DNA of 23,653 nucleotides from a virus. The stretch spans positions 1-23,653 of the IMG/VR virus record IMGVR_UViG_3300029286_000251; one strand, given 5' to 3'. Under the pieces are notes generated by a model. That model saw nothing but the letters and a program-made list of their open reading frames with translations, had not been told where the DNA came from and searched no databases. How positions within the stretch are numbered: position 1 is the stretch's first letter; the number at the start of each line of letters is the position of its first letter. Positions 605-23,653 of the stretch are shown here, one piece after another. A program made the translations under genes and the position numbers.

Positions 605-1989
605 CAGATACCTCCTGTGATTTGTTCCATAGTCCCTTCAGGCATTCTGTTTCTCATCAGGGCCGGTTCTCTTTCTGTCTGAGTAGGCATAAAGTCAAAA
701 GAAAGAGTAGCATCAACTAGTCCAGCCATTGCTTTAGCTCCTAGACTTGTGCCCCCTGTGGCTGCGGCGGCAATCAAATCTTCCGGCCCATAAGTTTCCT
801 GCACCCCTCCACCTTCGTACTTATTAACCATAGTCTTTCTTTTCATCTCTTTTGCTTGCCCCGGAGAAAAAGCCCCTTGCCATTTCTTTACTTCTTTATC
901 AGAAGGAAGTACAGCAATAATATCGTCAGGCTCAAAGTCGTATCTCTTTCTACTCAATATTCTACCTGAAGGGTCTAGCTCCCTAGTGCCAGGATCATAA
1001 GGTTGTTTATGAAGTAATTCTTCTTTAGTCATTTTTCTTCTTGCAGCCGTATCGAATGAATCTACTTCATGTATCTGTGCTCTATATAATTCATAGTCTT
1101 TATTTCTGTTAACAAATTCTCTTAGTCTAAGAATGTCTTTGCTATTGAAATCATCAAGATTTCTTTTATGCGTACTCCATTTATTAGCTCTGTCTGCATA
1201 TAAAAAATCAACACCGCTTTTTAATTTCTTATAATTGCTTCCATGAACTCCTATATCGGACAATGTCATCCTATCTATTCCTGTAATCCGTTCATACTCT
1301 TGAGCTAGTTCTTGATTCCTTCTATATATACTGCTTGCATCCGCATTAGATAGTCGCTGCTGCAATATCATTTCATTGTTGAACATCTCATTGCTTATTG
1401 CATTTATTCTGTTTTTATCGGAATGCTTTAGATTCTTTACCTTCTCATAAGCGTCTTTTGCTACATCATAATATGCTTTTGATCTCTTTTCATTCTCTCT
1501 GATCTCAGGTATAGCTTCATCTGCCAACTTTCTGATAAGAGTTTTATTAGCTACCCATGCTTTTACAGGCCCACCACCATGAGGCCAATCCTCTTTCTCT
1601 TGGATAGCGTGTTGTAGTTCATGAATCATTGAACCTACTTTACTTGGCGCATCTTGTGCTATTGCGATTTCTCCATTAACATAAGTACTGACTGTCCCCG
1701 GAATCTTTTTTACTTTAATGTTCTTCCATAGTTCAGGGTAGTTCTGTGCTAATTCAGGGTGCGAGAAGATATCTGCAATTGGCTGGAACTTATCTCCCGG
1801 CTGTTTAAGATACTGTGATCCCACATCAGATATCTCTGCCTGAACCTTCTTATCTACAATCGTAGAGAACTTCCCTTCGATATCTGCCCAGTTCTTAGCC
1901 TTAGGGCCGACTCGTATAGCCTCTGCATCTTCAGGTAGCAATGCTGACCCCAATGCAGTCGCACCAAACGCTGGAAGAAGTTTCTTCAT
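604..1989 (-). CDS. Virion-associated zincin-like (HExxH) protein
   Basis: The 461-residue protein starts at ATG 1989, which overlaps the stop of the giant upstream gene as ATGA, with an AGGTGG ribosome site just before it. Residues 123-127 are HELQH, set in MIHELQHAIQEKEDW and followed by PHGGG. HExxH is the zinc-binding and catalytic motif of zincin metallopeptidases. The context 'HELQHxIQ-E--xxGG' resembles metallopeptidase-like LPD domains of large phage polyvalent proteins; that match is from memory. Residues 1-24 form a signal-like hydrophobic stretch ending in PEDAEA. Residues 150-330 are highly charged and probably helical. An acidic segment (YDFEPDDIIAV) and a hydrophobic Ala/Gly patch follow near the C-terminus. 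Position after the ejection proteins suggests it is packaged in the virion and delivered to the host or acts on the cell wall. Protease activity is an inference; the third zinc ligand is not certain (E131, E133, D134 or H137). Confidence 0.62.
   Translation of the reverse strand: MKKLLPAFGATALGSALLPEDAEAIRVGPKAKNWADIEGKFSTIVDKKVQAEISDVGSQYLKQPGDKFQPIADIFSHPELAQNYPELWKNIKVKKIPGTVSTYVNGEIAIAQDAPSKVGSMIHELQHAIQEKEDWPHGGGPVKAWVANKTLIRKLADEAIPEIRENEKRSKAYYDVAKDAYEKVKNLKHSDKNRINAISNEMFNNEMILQQRLSNADASSIYRRNQELAQEYERITGIDRMTLSDIGVHGSNYKKLKSGVDFLYADRANKWSTHKRNLDDFNSKDILRLREFVNRNKDYELYRAQIHEVDSFDTAARRKMTKEELLHKQPYDPGTRELDPSGRILSRKRYDFEPDDIIAVLPSDKEVKKWQGAFSPGQAKEMKRKTMVNKYEGGGVQETYGPEDLIAAAATGGTSLGAKAMAGLVDATLSFDFMPTQTEREPALMRNRMPEGTMEQITGGI
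605..620 (-). promoter_or_regulatory. Ribosome binding site of the tailspike gene
   Basis: AGGAGGT at 610-616 lies five bases before the ATG at 604. It sits inside the last codons of the upstream gene, and the stop (TGA, 604-606) shares its A with the ATG. This fixes the tailspike start and suggests translational coupling. Confidence 0.8.
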
Positions 1990-4900
1990 TGTCTTGCCAC
2001 CTTATTAAATTCTCTAATCATATCTTCTGTAGCAATACCGCTGATAGAGTTTGCTTTCTGAAGCATCTCTGCTTTCTTTTCCGGGGAAGCGGTCTTGAGC
2101 CTGTTCCATAGTTTCTCTGCCCTTGCTTTAGGAGAATCTTTTCTTAGATTCTTCCAGAAGTATTTATCGGGCAAATCTTTAATCTCATATTCATCTTCAT
2201 ATCTCTTTGTGAGTCTGTCCTGAATTTCTTCTGGGGCACTCTGGATATACTTCACTACTGCATCATAGTCTGATCTTGATTTGGTCTTAAAGAACCGATT
2301 CATCTTTTCATCAAAATCTCTGTTCTCAACAAACCTTTCAGTTCTTACTTTCATGTCAATTTCTTTAGACTCTTCCCTGTATTCAGTAGCAGGGTTAGTA
2401 TAAGACATTAATCGTTTAACTGAAGGGTTCGCTGATACCAATTCATTCCATCCCGTAGTAGCCAGTTTTTCTTGTGCCTCCCCTGTAGCGAACTGAATTG
2501 CCGTCCCTGTTGCACTAACAATAGGGTTACTATAAGGGAGGACTTTACCAAGAGCAGTCTGCATTCTTACAGGAGAAAGACCTGTGGCTTGTCCTAATTC
2601 CTTGAACGCTTTTGGGGTTTCAGGGTAGGCTTCTTCTTTGGGGTCAACCCCCTGCGCACCTTTCCAGATTTGATCCCAAGTGAAGTCATTGACATTTGCC
2701 GCCATTGCAATAGCCCCTGCCAATAATGGTGGGAGGGAAGTCTTGATACCAAGATTCTGTAAAGCAATGAACAACTGTCTTTTAGGGATTGTACCGCTTA
2801 TCCCAAACTCTGCTGCTGCATCCATAGCACTTAAGAATATCTGCTGTGGTTGATCTTTGGCGATCTTCATGAATCTATAGACTTTGTTCCCTTGAGAATC
2901 ATGGAAGTCTGTTACTCCTGGCATTTGCGGAGGGACGATAATAAAGTTCTGCGCCTTGTCGGAATCTGAAATCTGTTTCAATGCTTCTGGGTTCTGTGAT
3001 CTATTCCAAGCATACAGCAAAAGACTTGCCGTTGAAAGTTGTGCCATCTTATAAGCAAAGTTAATCGGGTCTTGCTTTGCATTTCTTCCCAATACTCTTG
3101 TGCCTTGAATAGAAGCGTTAAGATACGGAACCATTGTATCAAGGAATTTAATTACATTTCCACCCTGAGAAAAGTCAATGCTACCTTCTCTTGCTATATT
3201 GGTTGCTTCGTATTCTAACTTACGCATCTCCTGTGCGTTTGGCGCACGGCCTAATCTTTTAGTAGATTCAGTAGTAAGATTTTCTAATGCTCTTCTTCTA
3301 TGGGCAACACGTGTCCAGATTTCTGAAGTCTCTCCAAGATACCCAAGAACCTTAGTAACGCTATTGATCTGTTCTCCTACTGCACCATGACCACCAAATC
3401 TACCATAGTAAGTTAGAAACTCTGTCCCGCCACCATCTCTAATGTAATCTTGTACTGCACCTTTACGAGTGAATACATCTTTGGCCGTGACTGCAAAATC
3501 TTTTGCGAACTGTGCAATAGCTACCGGAAGATGTCCTGAATACTGATGTCCAGACCACACAAGTGCTATATCTCTAGGCATGTTTGTGATCCAGAACAAA
3601 GGGTTATATCCTGTCGCCGCTGCTTTTAATGGAGTGCTTAACGAGAACCATCCAAGGAATTTACTTAGAGTATGGTTTATCAATGGGTCTGTTTTAACCC
3701 ATGACTTCTCAAATTCTTTCGGGACAATCATATCTACCCTTGTCCCATTCTCCATCACAGACACAATCCCTTCCCCGCTTTTAGGTTGAGCATACTGTGG
3801 GACACCGTTCTTTGAGTATCCAATAATGTTTGCCCTTCTAACAAGAGGGTTGGTTACATTCTGTTTTGCTAGTTCATCGGCTAATTCCAGCACAGATAGA
3901 TTAGCTTTATTTCTTGCAATAAGGTCTTGCACCCTTGAGGTATGTTGCTGTAAGAGAAGTTGCGATCTCTTCTCCATCAGGCCAATAGAACCTTCATCAA
4001 GTGCTTTGATACCAGAGTTAGGTGCATTGATAGCCCTACCGGAAATCTGCCCGTCCATCGTATCAAGATACTCAAGGTACTTTCTTGGGGAATAGAGCTT
4101 ATCTTTCATTGCATCAAAGGCTTCTTGAGATACAATTCCGTTTGAAAGTAACTGATCTAACTGATTCCTAGTTGCCTTGAAGTATTCTCCCATTCTTGTT
4201 TCAAGATTGGTGACTTGTTCTGTGGTAAGTCCTTCGATCTTTCCTACATTATCAAGGTAATCCTGAAACTGTTTTCCTTGTAATGCGTCAGGATGTCGGA
4301 CTCCGGGTTTGTATCCAGCGATTTCTACGTTACGTTGTGCTGCAATAAGGTTATCAAGAACAGTCTTCATCCTTCCATTAAGACCTTTGTGAATCTTCTC
4401 TGTCGCAAATCCAAACTGCCTTACTGCTTCTGCATTTGATCCGGCAGTAAGGTTTCTCATTATGACTGCTTGGCGTCCAAGTTCAGGATCAGCAGCCATT
4501 AGCATATTCTTTGCCTTACCAGAGACATCAATGAATCCTCTTACGAATGCATCCTTGAATTTCTTGGCAGACATACCAAACTTGGATATCAATGCATCGT
4601 CGGTCTTACGGAACATATCTGCTACTTGGAGTGCGTTCTGTTCTTCAAGAGTCTTAGGAACAAAAGTAATAGCCTTCTTGGGCCTTGGGAAGAACACCAT
4701 CCCCGCTGCCATACCTACAGCACCCTTCATTGGATCATAGGATATCGTTCCTTCTTCATCTATATCTATTCCTGCCACAGCACCAAAGACATTCTGTTTA
4801 GGGGGCCATAGTCCCATATCCTTTAACTGCTGTATATCTTCAGGAGACATCGTTTCAGTCTTTACTCCATCAGAGGCTTCTACTTTATTGCCTTTCTTTC

Positions 4901-6950
4901 TAAGGATAACTTTAGGAGTAGAAGATTTTGCAGCCTGTGCTACTTTCGCACCACTCTTCTTTAATGATTCTATCTGAGCCATTACAAAGTTAAGTAGTTT
5001 ATTTGCTTGAGTGGCCTCTTCTTTATTGTTTGCTTTTAATGCAGCAAGACGAGTTTCATTAACTCTTCCTGCTTCTGCTTCAAGTTCTGCAAGTTTAGTG
5101 GAGTTGTCTACTTCTGCGACTTTAGTCTCTTTAGCCGTTTTTACAGGAGTAGGAGTTTCTATTTTAGGAGCGACTCTTGCAGCAGGAGCCGATGGTTGTG
5201 ATCTTGCCACATTCCATTCGGATGCCACCTTAGCGTGCTGATCAAGAATAGTCTCTATCTTCCCTTGAAGCTCTTCAATAAGAGGTTTATTGCCTGACTG
5301 CATTGCAGTCATTAACTGTTCTCTTAAATCTTTTCCTTGCTGAACAAGACCATCCATTTCTGCTTTAAGACCACCTACTGTCTTAGGCATGCCACTAAGG
5401 ACTACTTCTTTAGGAGAAGCAGGAACAGGTTCTGGAATACTAGTTCCCCCGGCCTCTTTCGCAGTGGCTCCAGGCGTGCCAGTGGTTGTCTTAGAGGGCG
5501 CGGGGGAAACTTTCTTAGGAACTGTAGCCTTTATAGCCGGTGCTACAGGTGTTGGTTTTGGAAGATTGACATTCTCGCCCTCCTGCACGAATTTCTGGAC
5601 TGCCAATTTATCCATTGCATCCCATGTAAAAGAGGGACGATCAAGAATTGCTTTCATCCTTAGGGCTTCTTCCGATCTTGCAGACCTCACCGAACCGCTA
5701 AACTCTACGGCAAGTTCTTCTTGAAGGGCTTTACGAACCAACTGGTCTTCTGTTTCTGTGACACCATACTTAATAGGATCAAGTAATGTTGCGGCTTCTT
5801 CTGAAGTGTACTCTTTAATATTAAGTTGACGGAGTTTCTCCCCAATCAAAAGACCTGATTTATTATTGGCCTCAAGTTCCCTATAAGCATTAGGTAAAAC
5901 TCTCTGGCGGATTTCTGCTTTACGAGCAGCATCCTTAGCGTTCTTATATTCTTCCCTCAGCCTAATAATGTTCTCTTCAAGATCGCGGCCAAGTCTATCT
6001 GTCTCTACTTTTCTACGGGCAAACATCAATTCAAGGGTGAGTTTCCTTGACGCTTCTTCAGACTGCTTTTTAATCAGTTCTTCAACAGGAGCCATTGCTT
6101 CATTAGAAGCACCGCCCTCTGCCATTTCCTTTAACTTAGTCTTTAATGCAGTAACATCATTAAGAATAGGGACTAGACCTGTAGTTCCTTTGTCTCGTTC
6201 TAATCTTAAGACATGCTGGAGGGCTTCTGTTTTAGTTGTCCCCATCACCTTAGCGAGTTTATTTACACCAAGGGCAACCCTTCCAGCCCATCCAACAGAA
6301 GTAGTTGCTGCTTCAATTCCAGCCCAAATACCAGCATCCTTTGCCACATCTTCAACTGTGGGTAGCTCACCTTCTTTAATGAGATGCTCTGCTGCGGTCT
6401 TAGCGCCACCAGCAATACCCCATCCTGTGATCTTAGCAAGAGGATCGGCCCACTTAGATTTAGTCAGATTGGTTACGATCTTCGCTCCTGAACCAATGAC
6501 CTTTGCCGCCTTAGAAATAGGCAGAAACTCTCCTGCCATCTTAGCGGCACCAAGACCCATTTTGGCACTCGTAGAATCAAGGTCTTTAGGAGCAATAAAC
6601 TCTTCTCCTTTAATGACTTCTCTTTTTGATGAAGGTTTAGGAAGAATCTTGTCAGAGATTCCTAGGGTCGCACCAGAAAATGCTTCTCTTGCGGTATCAA
6701 CCACGGTTCCCGGCAGACCAGCAACAGTCATCCCTGCTGCATAAAGATTGGGATTTGTGGTCTTGAACTCTTTAGGTTCGTTTATTGTAGAAAAGAACGC
6801 TGTAGCGACTTCTTGACGAGTCCCTTTATCAAGTGCCTTGTATTCATCTGTGGCAATGTTCTTATCAAAATATATTCGGGCAACTTCATTCTTGGTTCCA
6901 AGAGGAAGTTCTTTCCATTGAGGGTCTTTAAGAATATCTTCCCAAGGCAT
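1986..6950 (-). CDS. Giant internal virion / ejection protein (polyvalent type)
   Basis: The 1654-residue protein starts at ATG 6950 behind AAAGGAG. Two short tandem repeats open it (residues 11-30 and 36-55, pattern W/Y-K-x-L-x-x-G-T-K/R-x-E-V-A). Residues 60-240 are Gly/Ala-rich and amphipathic. Charged coiled-coil-like segments lie near 290-360, 520-580 and 615-665, separated by a Pro/Thr/Ala linker (460-610). The best-conserved-looking part is about 1080-1320, with NPLFWITNMPRD and later DFSQGG followed by VPYLNASIQG. That pattern resembles the LPD38-type domain of large polyvalent phage proteins (from memory). The C-terminus (1525-1654) is highly charged and helical. By size and position, third after the Ala/Gly-rich and coiled-coil genes, it matches the T7 gp16 slot: an inner-core protein ejected into the cell to help DNA entry. 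No lysozyme or transglycosylase motif was recognised. Confidence 0.72.
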   Translation of the reverse strand: MPWEDILKDPQWKELPLGTKNEVARIYFDKNIATDEYKALDKGTRQEVATAFFSTINEPKEFKTTNPNLYAAGMTVAGLPGTVVDTAREAFSGATLGISDKILPKPSSKREVIKGEEFIAPKDLDSTSAKMGLGAAKMAGEFLPISKAAKVIGSGAKIVTNLTKSKWADPLAKITGWGIAGGAKTAAEHLIKEGELPTVEDVAKDAGIWAGIEAATTSVGWAGRVALGVNKLAKVMGTTKTEALQHVLRLERDKGTTGLVPILNDVTALKTKLKEMAEGGASNEAMAPVEELIKKQSEEASRKLTLELMFARRKVETDRLGRDLEENIIRLREEYKNAKDAARKAEIRQRVLPNAYRELEANNKSGLLIGEKLRQLNIKEYTSEEAATLLDPIKYGVTETEDQLVRKALQEELAVEFSGSVRSARSEEALRMKAILDRPSFTWDAMDKLAVQKFVQEGENVNLPKPTPVAPAIKATVPKKVSPAPSKTTTGTPGATAKEAGGTSIPEPVPASPKEVVLSGMPKTVGGLKAEMDGLVQQGKDLREQLMTAMQSGNKPLIEELQGKIETILDQHAKVASEWNVARSQPSAPAARVAPKIETPTPVKTAKETKVAEVDNSTKLAELEAEAGRVNETRLAALKANNKEEATQANKLLNFVMAQIESLKKSGAKVAQAAKSSTPKVILRKKGNKVEASDGVKTETMSPEDIQQLKDMGLWPPKQNVFGAVAGIDIDEEGTISYDPMKGAVGMAAGMVFFPRPKKAITFVPKTLEEQNALQVADMFRKTDDALISKFGMSAKKFKDAFVRGFIDVSGKAKNMLMAADPELGRQAVIMRNLTAGSNAEAVRQFGFATEKIHKGLNGRMKTVLDNLIAAQRNVEIAGYKPGVRHPDALQGKQFQDYLDNVGKIEGLTTEQVTNLETRMGEYFKATRNQLDQLLSNGIVSQEAFDAMKDKLYSPRKYLEYLDTMDGQISGRAINAPNSGIKALDEGSIGLMEKRSQLLLQQHTSRVQDLIARNKANLSVLELADELAKQNVTNPLVRRANIIGYSKNGVPQYAQPKSGEGIVSVMENGTRVDMIVPKEFEKSWVKTDPLINHTLSKFLGWFSLSTPLKAAATGYNPLFWITNMPRDIALVWSGHQYSGHLPVAIAQFAKDFAVTAKDVFTRKGAVQDYIRDGGGTEFLTYYGRFGGHGAVGEQINSVTKVLGYLGETSEIWTRVAHRRRALENLTTESTKRLGRAPNAQEMRKLEYEATNIAREGSIDFSQGGNVIKFLDTMVPYLNASIQGTRVLGRNAKQDPINFAYKMAQLSTASLLLYAWNRSQNPEALKQISDSDKAQNFIIVPPQMPGVTDFHDSQGNKVYRFMKIAKDQPQQIFLSAMDAAAEFGISGTIPKRQLFIALQNLGIKTSLPPLLAGAIAMAANVNDFTWDQIWKGAQGVDPKEEAYPETPKAFKELGQATGLSPVRMQTALGKVLPYSNPIVSATGTAIQFATGEAQEKLATTGWNELVSANPSVKRLMSYTNPATEYREESKEIDMKVRTERFVENRDFDEKMNRFFKTKSRSDYDAVVKYIQSAPEEIQDRLTKRYEDEYEIKDLPDKYFWKNLRKDSPKARAEKLWNRLKTASPEKKAEMLQKANSISGIATEDMIREFNKVARQ

Positions 6951-20703: not shown

Positions 20704-20856
20704 CTATCCTTTTATAGTGAAGGAAACAACGCTTAATTGTTTCTTTAAGGGTCTTCCGCAATATTTGCAAGGTATTTCTTTATCATTATCCTTAAGAGGG
20801 ACTATGATCTCGAATCGTTTCTTACACTTATCGCAAGTGTAATCATGCATCGGCAT
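20704..20856 (-). CDS. FmdB-type zinc ribbon protein (50 residues)
   Basis: A short gene starts at ATG 20856, fused to the terminase stop as TGATG, with AAAGGAG ten bases upstream, and ends with TAG at 20704, just before the portal. It begins MPMHDYTCDKCKKRFEI and has CKYCG near residue 30; C8, C11, C30 and C33 make two CxxC knuckles, and it ends VVSFTIKG. 'MP-x-Y-x-C-xx-C-xxxFE ... C-xx-CG ... F-xx-KG' is the pattern of the FmdB family of small zinc ribbons, which are putative regulators found in bacteria and phages. The residue pattern and tight packing argue strongly that it is a real gene. Its role may be a nucleic-acid or protein contact during packaging; function is unproven. Confidence 0.8.
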   Translation of the reverse strand: MPMHDYTCDKCKKRFEIIVPLKDNDKEIPCKYCGRPLKKQLSVVSFTIKG

Positions 20857-23653
20857 CAGCGCAATACTCCTTTTGCATAATATTTTGGACGACTAACTTC
20901 TGAATTATATGGGCCAAAGTGTGTTCTAGTAATCAATGGCGACTTAAGTAAGCACTCAATAGCTAATGGGAAATGACTGAACTTCATTTGAGGCTTTTCT
21001 TTAGGATCGTTACGAGTCATGGTTTCCCTTGATGCCCATTCTTCATATCTCCAGTTTCTCATGCTTTCTATAACATATTTACAATTATCGGTTATCCATA
21101 TCGTAGGAAGATAAACTGTCCTTCCGTTATCAATTACTTTATTATTAAAAGGCTTTCCTACTTTTATAGAATTAAGAAGTCTTTTTGTAAATTCTTCTCT
21201 TCCTCTAGTTCCATGAGTTTCCCAAGACTGCCAATGCCCACCCCTACAAATGTTCTGATTTCTAAATTCATTGAAGTATCTATTTAGATCATCAATAGTA
21301 GAGAAGTTAGTCGAGTTCTGCTTCTTTGCAGCATTGGGGTCTATTAGGTCAAGCAGATATTTATGATCACCACTCATATGTGCTATGTTTAGAGCAATGT
21401 CATAAGTGATATTATTTGTCTTTGCAGATGCATCACACCACACAAAGATTTCATCTTGAGGGGAAATACCTAACCAGACTACTGCCCAAGGATTAGATTC
21501 GTGATGGTCTATTCCTCTTGCAAACTTATATGCATCTGGGATGCCTTGTGGGAAATAAGTATCTTGTTTAATGACATGAGTATGTGGGTCAAATGACTTA
21601 AAGACCCTCCCAGATAATTGCCTAAACAATCCATATCTACGAGCATCAACAATATCTTCATCATCATACATGGCGAATAGGCTATCAATGTATTCTTTTG
21701 CTGTCGTAGGGATGCCAGTAATCTTGGATTTCTGCTTGGCTAGTTCTTCATAAATAGGGTTATCGTCTGTTGCTGCCATGATAACACAGATATCATCAGA
21801 CGAATCCGTTATCTGCATTTCAGGAACATCTTCTCCGTATCTCTCTTTAATCCTTTTTCTTACTGCTTCAGTTCTATAGATAATCCTTGCTCTTTCATAA
21901 AGAGAATCAAATTCCCATCCAATAGCCCCAGGAACAGGAGTAAAGGTAAATATGATATCTCCGTCTGCCGCTAAAAGTCTTGGTACTTGCTCTTCAAAGA
22001 AATCCTTGCTGCACTCCTCGTCGATCCAGCAGGAATTATGAGATACTAATCCTCCTTGAATTAGAAAATTATTTCTTGGTGATCTTGCTACTATCCTCTG
22101 CGTTTTTATTCCATTTTTTTCTCGATAGTCCCATCCTCCACTTTCCATTTGGATATCGTAAGTGATTTTCTTCCCTATGTATTCTATTTTTTTAACAAGA
22201 ACAGATTTTTTAACTGGCAGTATATTTTTTCCGCCTTTTTCACTATATCTTCTTTTTGCTTCTTTTAATACATTAGTAACGCTATTATCTTTATGAGCAA
22301 TTCCAATCTCACTAAGAAATTTTATTGCATCTCTTGATTGCGCTATAATTATCCAATATTGTTTATTCCATTTATTTGTAAATGTTTTTGTATATTTATT
22401 TGATCTTATCCCTAATCTTCTTAATAATAAAAATAAGTCATCTGATAACCTTTCTGATGTAGAACAATATCCTATTGATTTGCCAGATGCCCATCCATCT
22501 GTAGCATATAGATATCTTAAAAATAACCTTATTGTTTTGTCATCTTGTGTAAATATATCTCTAGGAATAAACTTTTCTCCTGCCTTTTTCCCGTATAATC
22601 CCGACTCTTCCAAATATTTTTTTAATTCTTTGCTATTTATTTTGTATTGCGGTGTTCCATGTTTTTCATATCTTACTTGCTTTATTGATCCAATTAAAAC
22701 ATTTGTTAAGTCATCTATAAATATCTTGTTCTTTGCTGTAATAAATATTCCATTTTCTCCAGTATGCCCATCACCAATTAATGAGGCTACCCATTTAATT
22801 AACCAATCTTCAATAGTTTTTGTTCCATAAATAATTGGAAGTTTTGCTTTTAGGCTATCTCCAACTTTTAATTCTCCTATCGACTTATATGTTCCACATC
22901 CAGCGGAAGCAACCATCATTCTATGGTCTTCTGTTGCTATAAAAGACAATCCTTTCTGGCATGATACTTTATATACATCCTTCTCTCCTGTGCATTTTAT
23001 ATCTTTTACTTTATTGGTCCTTTGTCGATCACTTCTTCCTCCGATAGCCTCACAAATAAGCTCGTCTCCTACCTCTATGTTTTCTATCTCCTCCCAAATA
23101 CCATTTGTTTTAAGTATCCGTTGCCCTTGTGCCAAACACCGACGCTGTACTCCAGCACCAGCTTGAGTATCCTGAGAAAATGACACATATTCTATCTGGA
23201 TATTGTCGCCTACGGGAGCCTTGACAGTTACAACTGCTTTTCTTGCTGTGATATCCTTTTCCATTAAGGAACTAGGAAATCTTCTCTTGAATGCTGGATA
23301 CTGGGTATTCCTGACTTCACCTTCCGTATTTTCACTTGGCAAAGTTTGCGAAGCAAATCTGAAAGTTCTTATTCTGTCTTCAGGTTTAATCCTTTTTGTT
23401 ACATTTGGATGAATCCCAAGTATCCGCATTGTGAAATCAACGGCAATAGAATCGGTATTATGATGCACCATCCCTGCGGCAATATAATTATGATACTTCG
23501 GAACCGTAAAATCATAAACCTCTTGACAGGAAACCAATTCAATGCTAATAACCTTATTCCCATCTAAAACATGAACTGAAGGGCAAGATTCCAAAGTGGT
23601 CTGATGTAGGGAAGGCGAAATTTCACCGTCCCCGGTCTGCCGAAGCGAAAGAA
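20856..23653 (-). CDS. terL: Terminase large subunit, 5' end outside window, split by two inteins
   Basis: The frame ends at TGA 20856 and stays open to the right edge; the first in-frame start-like codon in the window (23594) is TTG inside an intein, so the true start is beyond the window. Numbering residues from that TTG: extein resumes at T47 (TDSIAVDFTMRILG, the residue after the P-loop GK), runs to R152 (SFSQDTQAGAGVQRR), and continues at S521 (SCWIDEEC, Walker B D525-E526). Then come RLLAADGDIIFTFTPVPGAI (TFTP coupling motif) and an RNase H-like nuclease domain (GIDHHESNPWAVVW with D696; LLDLIDPNAAK). The enzyme packages DNA into the procapsid, using ATP to drive translocation and cutting concatemers. 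The visible extein is about 498 residues. The third nuclease acid is not obvious near KFSHFPLAIECLL, where a D is usual. Confidence 0.88.
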   Translation of the reverse strand, partial: LSLRQTGDGEISPSLHQTTLESCPSVHVLDGNKVISIELVSCQEVYDFTVPKYHNYIAAGMVHHNTDSIAVDFTMRILGIHPNVTKRIKPEDRIRTFRFASQTLPSENTEGEVRNTQYPAFKRRFPSSLMEKDITARKAVVTVKAPVGDNIQIEYVSFSQDTQAGAGVQRRCLAQGQRILKTNGIWEEIENIEVGDELICEAIGGRSDRQRTNKVKDIKCTGEKDVYKVSCQKGLSFIATEDHRMMVASAGCGTYKSIGELKVGDSLKAKLPIIYGTKTIEDWLIKWVASLIGDGHTGENGIFITAKNKIFIDDLTNVLIGSIKQVRYEKHGTPQYKINSKELKKYLEESGLYGKKAGEKFIPRDIFTQDDKTIRLFLRYLYATDGWASGKSIGYCSTSERLSDDLFLLLRRLGIRSNKYTKTFTNKWNKQYWIIIAQSRDAIKFLSEIGIAHKDNSVTNVLKEAKRRYSEKGGKNILPVKKSVLVKKIEYIGKKITYDIQMESGGWDYREKNGIKTQRIVARSPRNNFLIQGGLVSHNSCWIDEECSKDFFEEQVPRLLAADGDIIFTFTPVPGAIGWEFDSLYERARIIYRTEAVRKRIKERYGEDVPEMQITDSSDDICVIMAATDDNPIYEELAKQKSKITGIPTTAKEYIDSLFAMYDDEDIVDARRYGLFRQLSGRVFKSFDPHTHVIKQDTYFPQGIPDAYKFARGIDHHESNPWAVVWLGISPQDEIFVWCDASAKTNNITYDIALNIAHMSGDHKYLLDLIDPNAAKKQNSTNFSTIDDLNRYFNEFRNQNICRGGHWQSWETHGTRGREEFTKRLLNSIKVGKPFNNKVIDNGRTVYLPTIWITDNCKYVIESMRNWRYEEWASRETMTRNDPKEKPQMKFSHFPLAIECLLKSPLITRTHFGPYNSEVSRPKYYAKGVLR
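22035..23138 (-). mobile_element. Complete LAGLIDADG intein in the terminase (before Walker B)
   Basis: The 368-residue intein starts with Cys (CLAQGQRILKTNG, block A, with IEVGDELI) and ends in SHN followed by extein Ser, all consistent with protein splicing. Block B is GLSFIATEDHRMMV, with the T-x-x-H motif. Two homing endonuclease motifs, WVASLIGDGH (codons 22764-22793) and LFLRYLYATDGW (22491-22526), both keep an aspartate, so the nuclease may be active. Block F is split: TYDIQMES and NNFLIQGGLV are separated by about 22 residues, and the His usual before NF is Asn. Four counted 60-base lines of the intein are about 28% GC against about 38% in extein lines, a sign of separate origin. Confidence 0.88.
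23457..23653 (-). mobile_element. C-terminal end of a second intein, at the terminase P-loop
   Basis: The last about 65 residues of an intein run from the right edge to N46, coded by 23457-23459. Block F is EVYDFTVPKYHNYIAAGMV and block G is VHHN, followed by Thr of the extein. The next residues TDSIAVDF are what follows GK in a terminase Walker A motif, so this intein splits the P-loop between Lys and Thr. The N-terminal part, and any homing nuclease in it, lies outside the window. Confidence 0.85.

Follow-up and report, generated by a model that had tools for sequence, protein, structure and literature searches.

Probable independent invasions of a phage large terminase by two inteins, and candidate antisense HNH genes in one intein lineage

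Background

Has the DNA-packaging ATPase of one phage been interrupted by inteins at both of its Walker motifs, and if so, by one event or by two? The question arises at the right edge of a linear IMG/VR record of 23,653 bases (G000; the whole record, ending at position 23653, is called the window here), for which an initial annotation had proposed a large terminase (TerL) with both ATPase motifs interrupted. TerL is a favourite intein host; the mycobacteriophage inteins TerL1-a and TerL1-e, for example, are inserted at the Lys/Thr junction of the P-loop and within Walker B, respectively (Kelley et al. 2016, PMC5050341). TerL of the cyanophage Mic1 possesses two inteins, in its ATPase and nuclease domains (PMC7156551).

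Results and discussion

The terminase frame

The structural gene module of the window is encoded on the minus strand, with TerL at its right edge. TerL is followed by a 667-aa gene at the place expected for the portal (without PHROGs match) and, further along, by the major head protein (phrog_371, E 3e-19), for which a PADLOC run returned nothing. The module also contains a 1,654-aa protein (1986-6950, minus strand). TerL runs off the right edge of the contig, so that the P-loop lies outside the window. In reading order the frame comprises a 65-aa intein C-terminus ending in HHN, a 106-aa extein, a 368-aa intein and an extein from SCWIDEE to the stop, in 931 codons without stop or frameshift:

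20856..23651, minus strand: TerL precursor frame, 931 residues plus stop, 5'-open at the contig edge; identity from the fold of a relative (L014)
23457..23651, minus strand: intein 1, C-terminal 65 aa only, blocks F and G, ...EVYDFTVPKYHNYIAAGMVHHN^TDS, before the P-loop Thr
23139..23456, minus strand: middle extein, 106 aa, P-loop Thr to just short of Walker B, TDSIAVDF...GAGVQRR
22035..23138, minus strand: intein 2, complete, 368 aa, at the Walker B motif, CLAQGQ...VSHN
20856..22034, minus strand: C-terminal extein, Walker B SCWIDEE, remaining ATPase and nuclease domain

A Pfam sequence search with the joined exteins gave no match. The TerL of L014 is 67% identical to that of the window, and its fold aligns with D6E TerL (Z 20.6, 375 aligned residues; the rmsd of 16.7 is due to hinged domains). 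Its ATPase domain matches that of P74-26 (Z 19.1, 222 aligned, rmsd 3.4) and its nuclease domain those of P22 and SPP1. By way of this fold, the window protein combines an ASCE ATPase with Walker A and B and an RNase H-like nuclease, as is characteristic of phage large terminases. Megablast of the window against phages gave no match, and the relatives carried by two GTDB MAG contigs (WOR-3, Syntrophales) are too distant for host assignment.

The Walker B intein

Intein 2 displays the motif order C1...TEDH...LIGDG...ATDGW...NNFLIQGGLVSHN^S, with the splicing residues C1, T69-E-D-H72 (block B) and H367-N368, followed by Ser at the +1 position. Four residues separate it from the Walker B Asp (SCWI-D); this placement and its end at position 22035 had both been given correctly in the initial annotation. 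Joining of the exteins (QRR^SCWIDEE) reproduces the empty sites of L014 (QRKSCWIDEEC) and L015 (QRRSVWIDEEC) in exact length, residue for residue. Block F reads NNF instead of HNF, as in the homologues; with the usual His replaced by Asn, the splicing chemistry is not the textbook one. Pfam detects LAGLIDADG_3 (E 2e-16), and Intein_splicing under its curated cut-off (E 1.4e-6). Two motifs are recognisable:

22767..22796, minus strand: first LAGLIDADG motif, ...SLIGDG, Asp kept (D123)
22494..22523, minus strand: second LAGLIDADG motif, FLRYLYATDG, Asp kept (D214); Pfam LAGLIDADG_3

Both aspartates are invariant across four homologues, and two helices, each with its catalytic acid, point to a LAGLIDADG homing endonuclease. 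The fold of intein 2 is argued from profiles only, because an AlphaFold model from two sequences had a pLDDT of 40.

A single-sequence search with intein 2 found no close relatives in viral contigs and, among phage records, only distant ones; further Walker B inteins were found with a two-sequence alignment query (A3). Over its full length intein 2 is 52% identical to the Walker B intein of L124 (intein B), 45% to that of L112 and 42% to that of L121. The Walker B inteins form one lineage, with 42-59% mutual identity and at most about 27% to P-loop inteins. The GC content of intein 2 is 0.315 vs 0.387 in its exteins, and lies below that of all 451 equal-length sliding windows on the contig, i.e. 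the intein is its most AT-rich 1,104-nt stretch. The Walker B inteins of L112 and L121 also show a clear GC drop against their exteins, that of L124 a slight one. The four inteins (window, 22029-22037; L112; L121; L124) differ in their insertion codon within the Walker B strand, which lies 0, 1, 2 or 4 residues past QR; the joined product is always QR-x5-D, with Cys or Ser at +1.

Given its two intact LAGLIDADG aspartates, its AT-richness and its absence from the sister terminase (L002/L003, Walker B QRASAWFDEE without insert), intein 2 is most simply the younger element of the pair and probably still mobile by homing.

The P-loop intein

The end of the record at 23653 cuts intein 1 down to its last 65 aa; the N-half of the intein, the P-loop Lys and the N-extein lie beyond that point. 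The visible part possesses the C-terminal splicing blocks F and G, the terminal His-Asn and a Thr at +1. Pfam Intein_splicing covers residues 32-65 (profile positions 121-155 of 155), and NCBIfam intein_Cterm scores above its cut-off. Over the last 35-38 aa, the splicing block is 71% identical to P-loop inteins of L016 and L028, and the N-terminal Cys with blocks A and B is present in relatives L002, L016 and L028. The proposed insertion at the Lys/Thr junction is seen in the window from its Thr side. As the Lys is off the contig, the site is taken from the sister terminase L002/L003 (found by extein scans, 75% identical over the C-extein), in which a 133-aa intein occupies the P-loop as FTGNQAGK^CLTKN...HHN^TDTLAMD, i.e. 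GNQAGK^T when joined; we infer the same site for intein 1. The claim that both ATPase motifs are interrupted thus stands for intein 2, seen end to end, and for the C-terminus of intein 1, while the P-loop itself is out of view.

On the opposite strand, intein 1 contains the probable remnant of a gene:

23561..23653, plus strand: antisense HNH relic in intein 1, HLKHELKGKIPKWSDVGKAKFHRPRSAEAKE, cut by the contig edge

Positions 23561-23620 of this strand match the antisense HNH proteins of L016 and L028, treated below (tblastn E 1e-7, 50-60% over 20 aa). The relic corresponds to the last third of the HNH protein and directly adjoins the intein C-block; no segment with the catalytic motif is found where intein 1 would be expected to hold it. 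With that part of the gene deleted, intein 1 is probably immobile.

Double occupancy in relatives

Wider scans yielded about 65 distinct TerL frames after merging of duplicates, or 56 once near-copies were removed (the tree set); the counts come from pattern scans and are minimum figures. In this census most relatives hold neither intein. P-loop inteins occur in L002, L016, L027, L028 and L030, all five with an empty Walker B site, and a Walker B intein occurs in L112 only, the P-loop of which is empty. Searches with Walker B inteins added L121-L123, again with Walker B occupied and the P-loop empty, and L124 (52.9-kb contig), a distant relative (41%) whose TerL ORF of 1,297 aa contains complete inteins at both sites, GNQMGK^[355 aa]^TCSVAYQ and TAGVQR^[375 aa]^CSIWLDEE. 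The Walker A plus Walker B architecture proposed for the window thus exists in complete form in another phage. The P-loop intein of L124 is 53% identical to that of L030 and 46% to that of L027, and is unrelated to intein 1, which is of the L016/L028 type. A tree of TerL C-exteins groups the window and L002 as sisters (support 100/99), and the double state needs two changes, forced by well-supported branches. Tree and unrelated P-loop inteins agree that double occupancy arose at least twice, by independent invasions. The suggestion of two invasions in the initial annotation is borne out by this pattern, by the single occupancy of each site in relatives and by the base composition of intein 2.

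Several further features were observed in the scans. The P-loop reads GNQAGGT, without Lys, in TerL of the L038 group (L038-L043), and GNQFGKNE, without Thr or Ser after the Lys, also occurs in this TerL family (odd P-loops: L038-L043, L010, L011 and L014). A reverse transcriptase-like gene of L003 (2805-3809) near a protein (927-2516) ending in ...YVGARLVFRK resembles a diversity-generating retroelement. A phage AAA+ ATPase (L127:1949-5881, plus strand) possesses two apparent inteins, one in the P-loop (GVPG^...^TGKS) and one at GLVGG^...^SEEK. The terminases of Perkons and KLEB27-3, suspected by length of two inteins, contain one each, at Walker A, and the intein in TerL of crAss cr53_1, considered as a Walker B case, comes after TGGDEG, which is not a Walker B residue.

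Origin of the double insertion

Taken together, it is very likely that two independent invasions brought self-splicing inteins into the ATPase domain of this TerL. Intein 1 would have entered between the Walker A Lys and Thr, from a terminase P-loop lineage with an opposite-strand HNH gene. Deletion of the part with the catalytic motif would have left it without mobility, and it would persist because only exact removal restores a working motor. Intein 2, four residues ahead of the Walker B Asp, would have arrived later. Both are predicted from their sequence motifs to excise autocatalytically after translation and to leave one TerL with Walker A and B intact, the nuclease activity of intein 2 being predicted likewise. 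That both splicing events are needed before packaging follows from the chemistry.

The same requirement could be a selected double gate, in which packaging is held until both inteins splice, redox state or temperature being conceivable triggers. Inteins do cluster in terminase ATPase motifs, ATP hydrolysis is possible only after splicing, and conditional splicing has been proposed for the two-intein TerL of Mic1 (PMC7156551). Yet each site is filled alone in relatives, most of which hold neither intein, and the P-loop inteins of the two Walker A plus Walker B doubles are unrelated to each other. This is what one expects of mobile elements rather than of a conserved switch, and we regard such a gate as improbable. 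Somewhat less probable still is a split intein: the C-part, all that is visible of intein 1, would then be one of two halves, with the N-part of TerL encoded elsewhere in the genome. Phage split inteins whose halves are separated by a nuclease gene were reportedly described by Dassa and colleagues in 2009 (cited in PMC3229294). The complete relatives of the same lineage (L002, L016, L028 and L133-L140) are, however, all contiguous open frames, and the window frame is open right up to the contig edge. That the inteins are artefacts of a chimeric assembly or the terminase a pseudogene is very improbable: this is a single metagenomic contig with its P-loop end at the contig edge, but the 931 codons are uninterrupted, both junctions give the exact extein length of empty relatives, and homologous in-frame inteins recur at the same motifs in independent contigs and samples, which also argues against chance.

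The reading preferred here, two independent invasions, has partial parallels. The insertion point of TerL1-a is exactly at the P-loop Lys/Thr junction, as proposed for intein 1, and that of TerL1-e is in the Walker B motif, as for intein 2, the likeness being one of motif; the two are separate entries from different phages, whereas the window has both sites filled in one gene (PMC5050341). Mic1 TerL likewise contains two different inteins, one with a homing endonuclease domain, but its second intein is in the nuclease domain and that of the window at Walker B (PMC7156551). TerL of the crAss-like phage OBYQ01000140 consists of three in-frame parts split by two inteins; unlike the window, these are Hint-Hop inteins in a gene with recoded TAG, and the text consulted gives no insertion motifs (PMC7886860). 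In view of the published Mic1 and crAss-like cases, the Walker A plus Walker B pair is a variation on known two-intein terminases. The unusualness claimed initially is therefore reduced to the pairing, of which no report was found in the open-access literature; two-intein terminases and each site singly were already known.

An antisense HNH gene in the intein 1 lineage

L028 and L016 have P-loop inteins of 304 aa, in which about 200 aa separate the splicing blocks. Read in frame, this stretch has no endonuclease domain match; its opposite strand contains an open frame of 200 or 204 codons in which Pfam detects HNH_3 (E 2e-8 and 7e-12).

L028:7273-7875, minus strand: P-loop intein locus with nested antisense HNH
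L016:1946-2560, minus strand: P-loop intein locus with nested antisense HNH

Between L028 and L016 the same bases give 55% protein identity in the HNH frame and 31% in the intein frame, and the bases differ by 32%, 31.5% and 57% at the first, second and third HNH codon position; the concentration of differences at the third position points to selection on the HNH frame. The intein frame is also free of stops, an outcome that random synonymous recoding of HNH yields at 0.0002 or less, these P values hinging on codon weights drawn from each TerL. A scan with both inteins found more members in TerL P-loops (L130-L140, L143 and L144). An intact antisense HNH frame in one register is present in all nine distinct full-length members (L130 to L139), about 180-210 codons long (248 open codons in L139) and with a GGAG/AGGA-like ribosome-binding site ahead of its start codon. 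In each of the nine the intein register lacks stops (recoding P up to 0.001), and differences over all pairs amount to 41, 33.5 and 60.7% by HNH codon position. The 133-aa intein of L002 has lost the whole HNH frame, and the series from full frame to relic (window) to none (L002) fits the usual decay of homing elements.

The closest HNH relatives in phage records (40-41%) are those of Pectobacterium phage Ymer and seven other records. In the Ymer records the HNH gene is antisense to a 754-aa gene listed as hypothetical protein, which is TerL according to Terminase_6N and 6C:

Ymer (L145) 1074-3338, minus strand: TerL
Ymer (L145) 2447-3145, plus strand: HNH

The 288-aa Ymer intein (GFG^...HHN^TGKS) is a second type of P-loop intein, and its antisense HNH protein comprises 232 aa (HNH_3, E 1.8e-6); no clear ribosome-binding site precedes its first ATG. 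Relatives such as Escherichia phage KW1E_UTAR, with an empty P-loop, match Ymer TerL only from residue 340, just past the intein. Between Ymer and Sabo the TerL exteins are identical, and all 15 base differences lie inside the HNH span, 10 of them at HNH third positions (5 HNH vs 13 intein residue changes). P-loop intein and antisense HNH occur together in TerL of eight cultured-phage records (Ymer genus and Dickeya phage Setonix), where TerL is labelled hypothetical protein or is unannotated. The words intein and HNH are absent from the paper on the Ymer genus.

The nearest parallel is ShiLan (Arsenault et al. 2025, PMC11855218), where a hidden out-of-frame HNH overlaps an open phage methylase frame. 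That arrangement is described as neither intein nor intron, unlike the intein 1 lineage, and the words antisense, opposite strand and reverse complement are absent from the text (PMC11855218). An opposite-strand endonuclease in inteins or in a fractured-gene arrangement was not found in the open-access literature, which argues weakly for novelty. On balance we favour, with some reserve, the reading that the intein 1 lineage constitutes an undescribed class, in which the homing endonuclease is a separate opposite-strand HNH gene nested in the open intein frame; the class would recur in terminase P-loops, including those of Pectobacterium phages, and the window would hold a relic copy that lost the nuclease and was later joined by a Walker B intein.

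Conclusions

This TerL, in which each Walker motif is disrupted by a selfish element of its own, is a clean case for the limit of intein load in one active site, and the double state is open to comparison because it arose at least twice. If the class is real, its inteins encode a spliced-out linker on one strand and the mobility enzyme on the other. To our knowledge, no known intein architecture splits nuclease and host-protein expression by strand. Inteins with an antisense HNH would separate the two in this way and matter more than double occupancy, and they sit in cultured phages whose terminase is only a hypothetical protein in GenBank.
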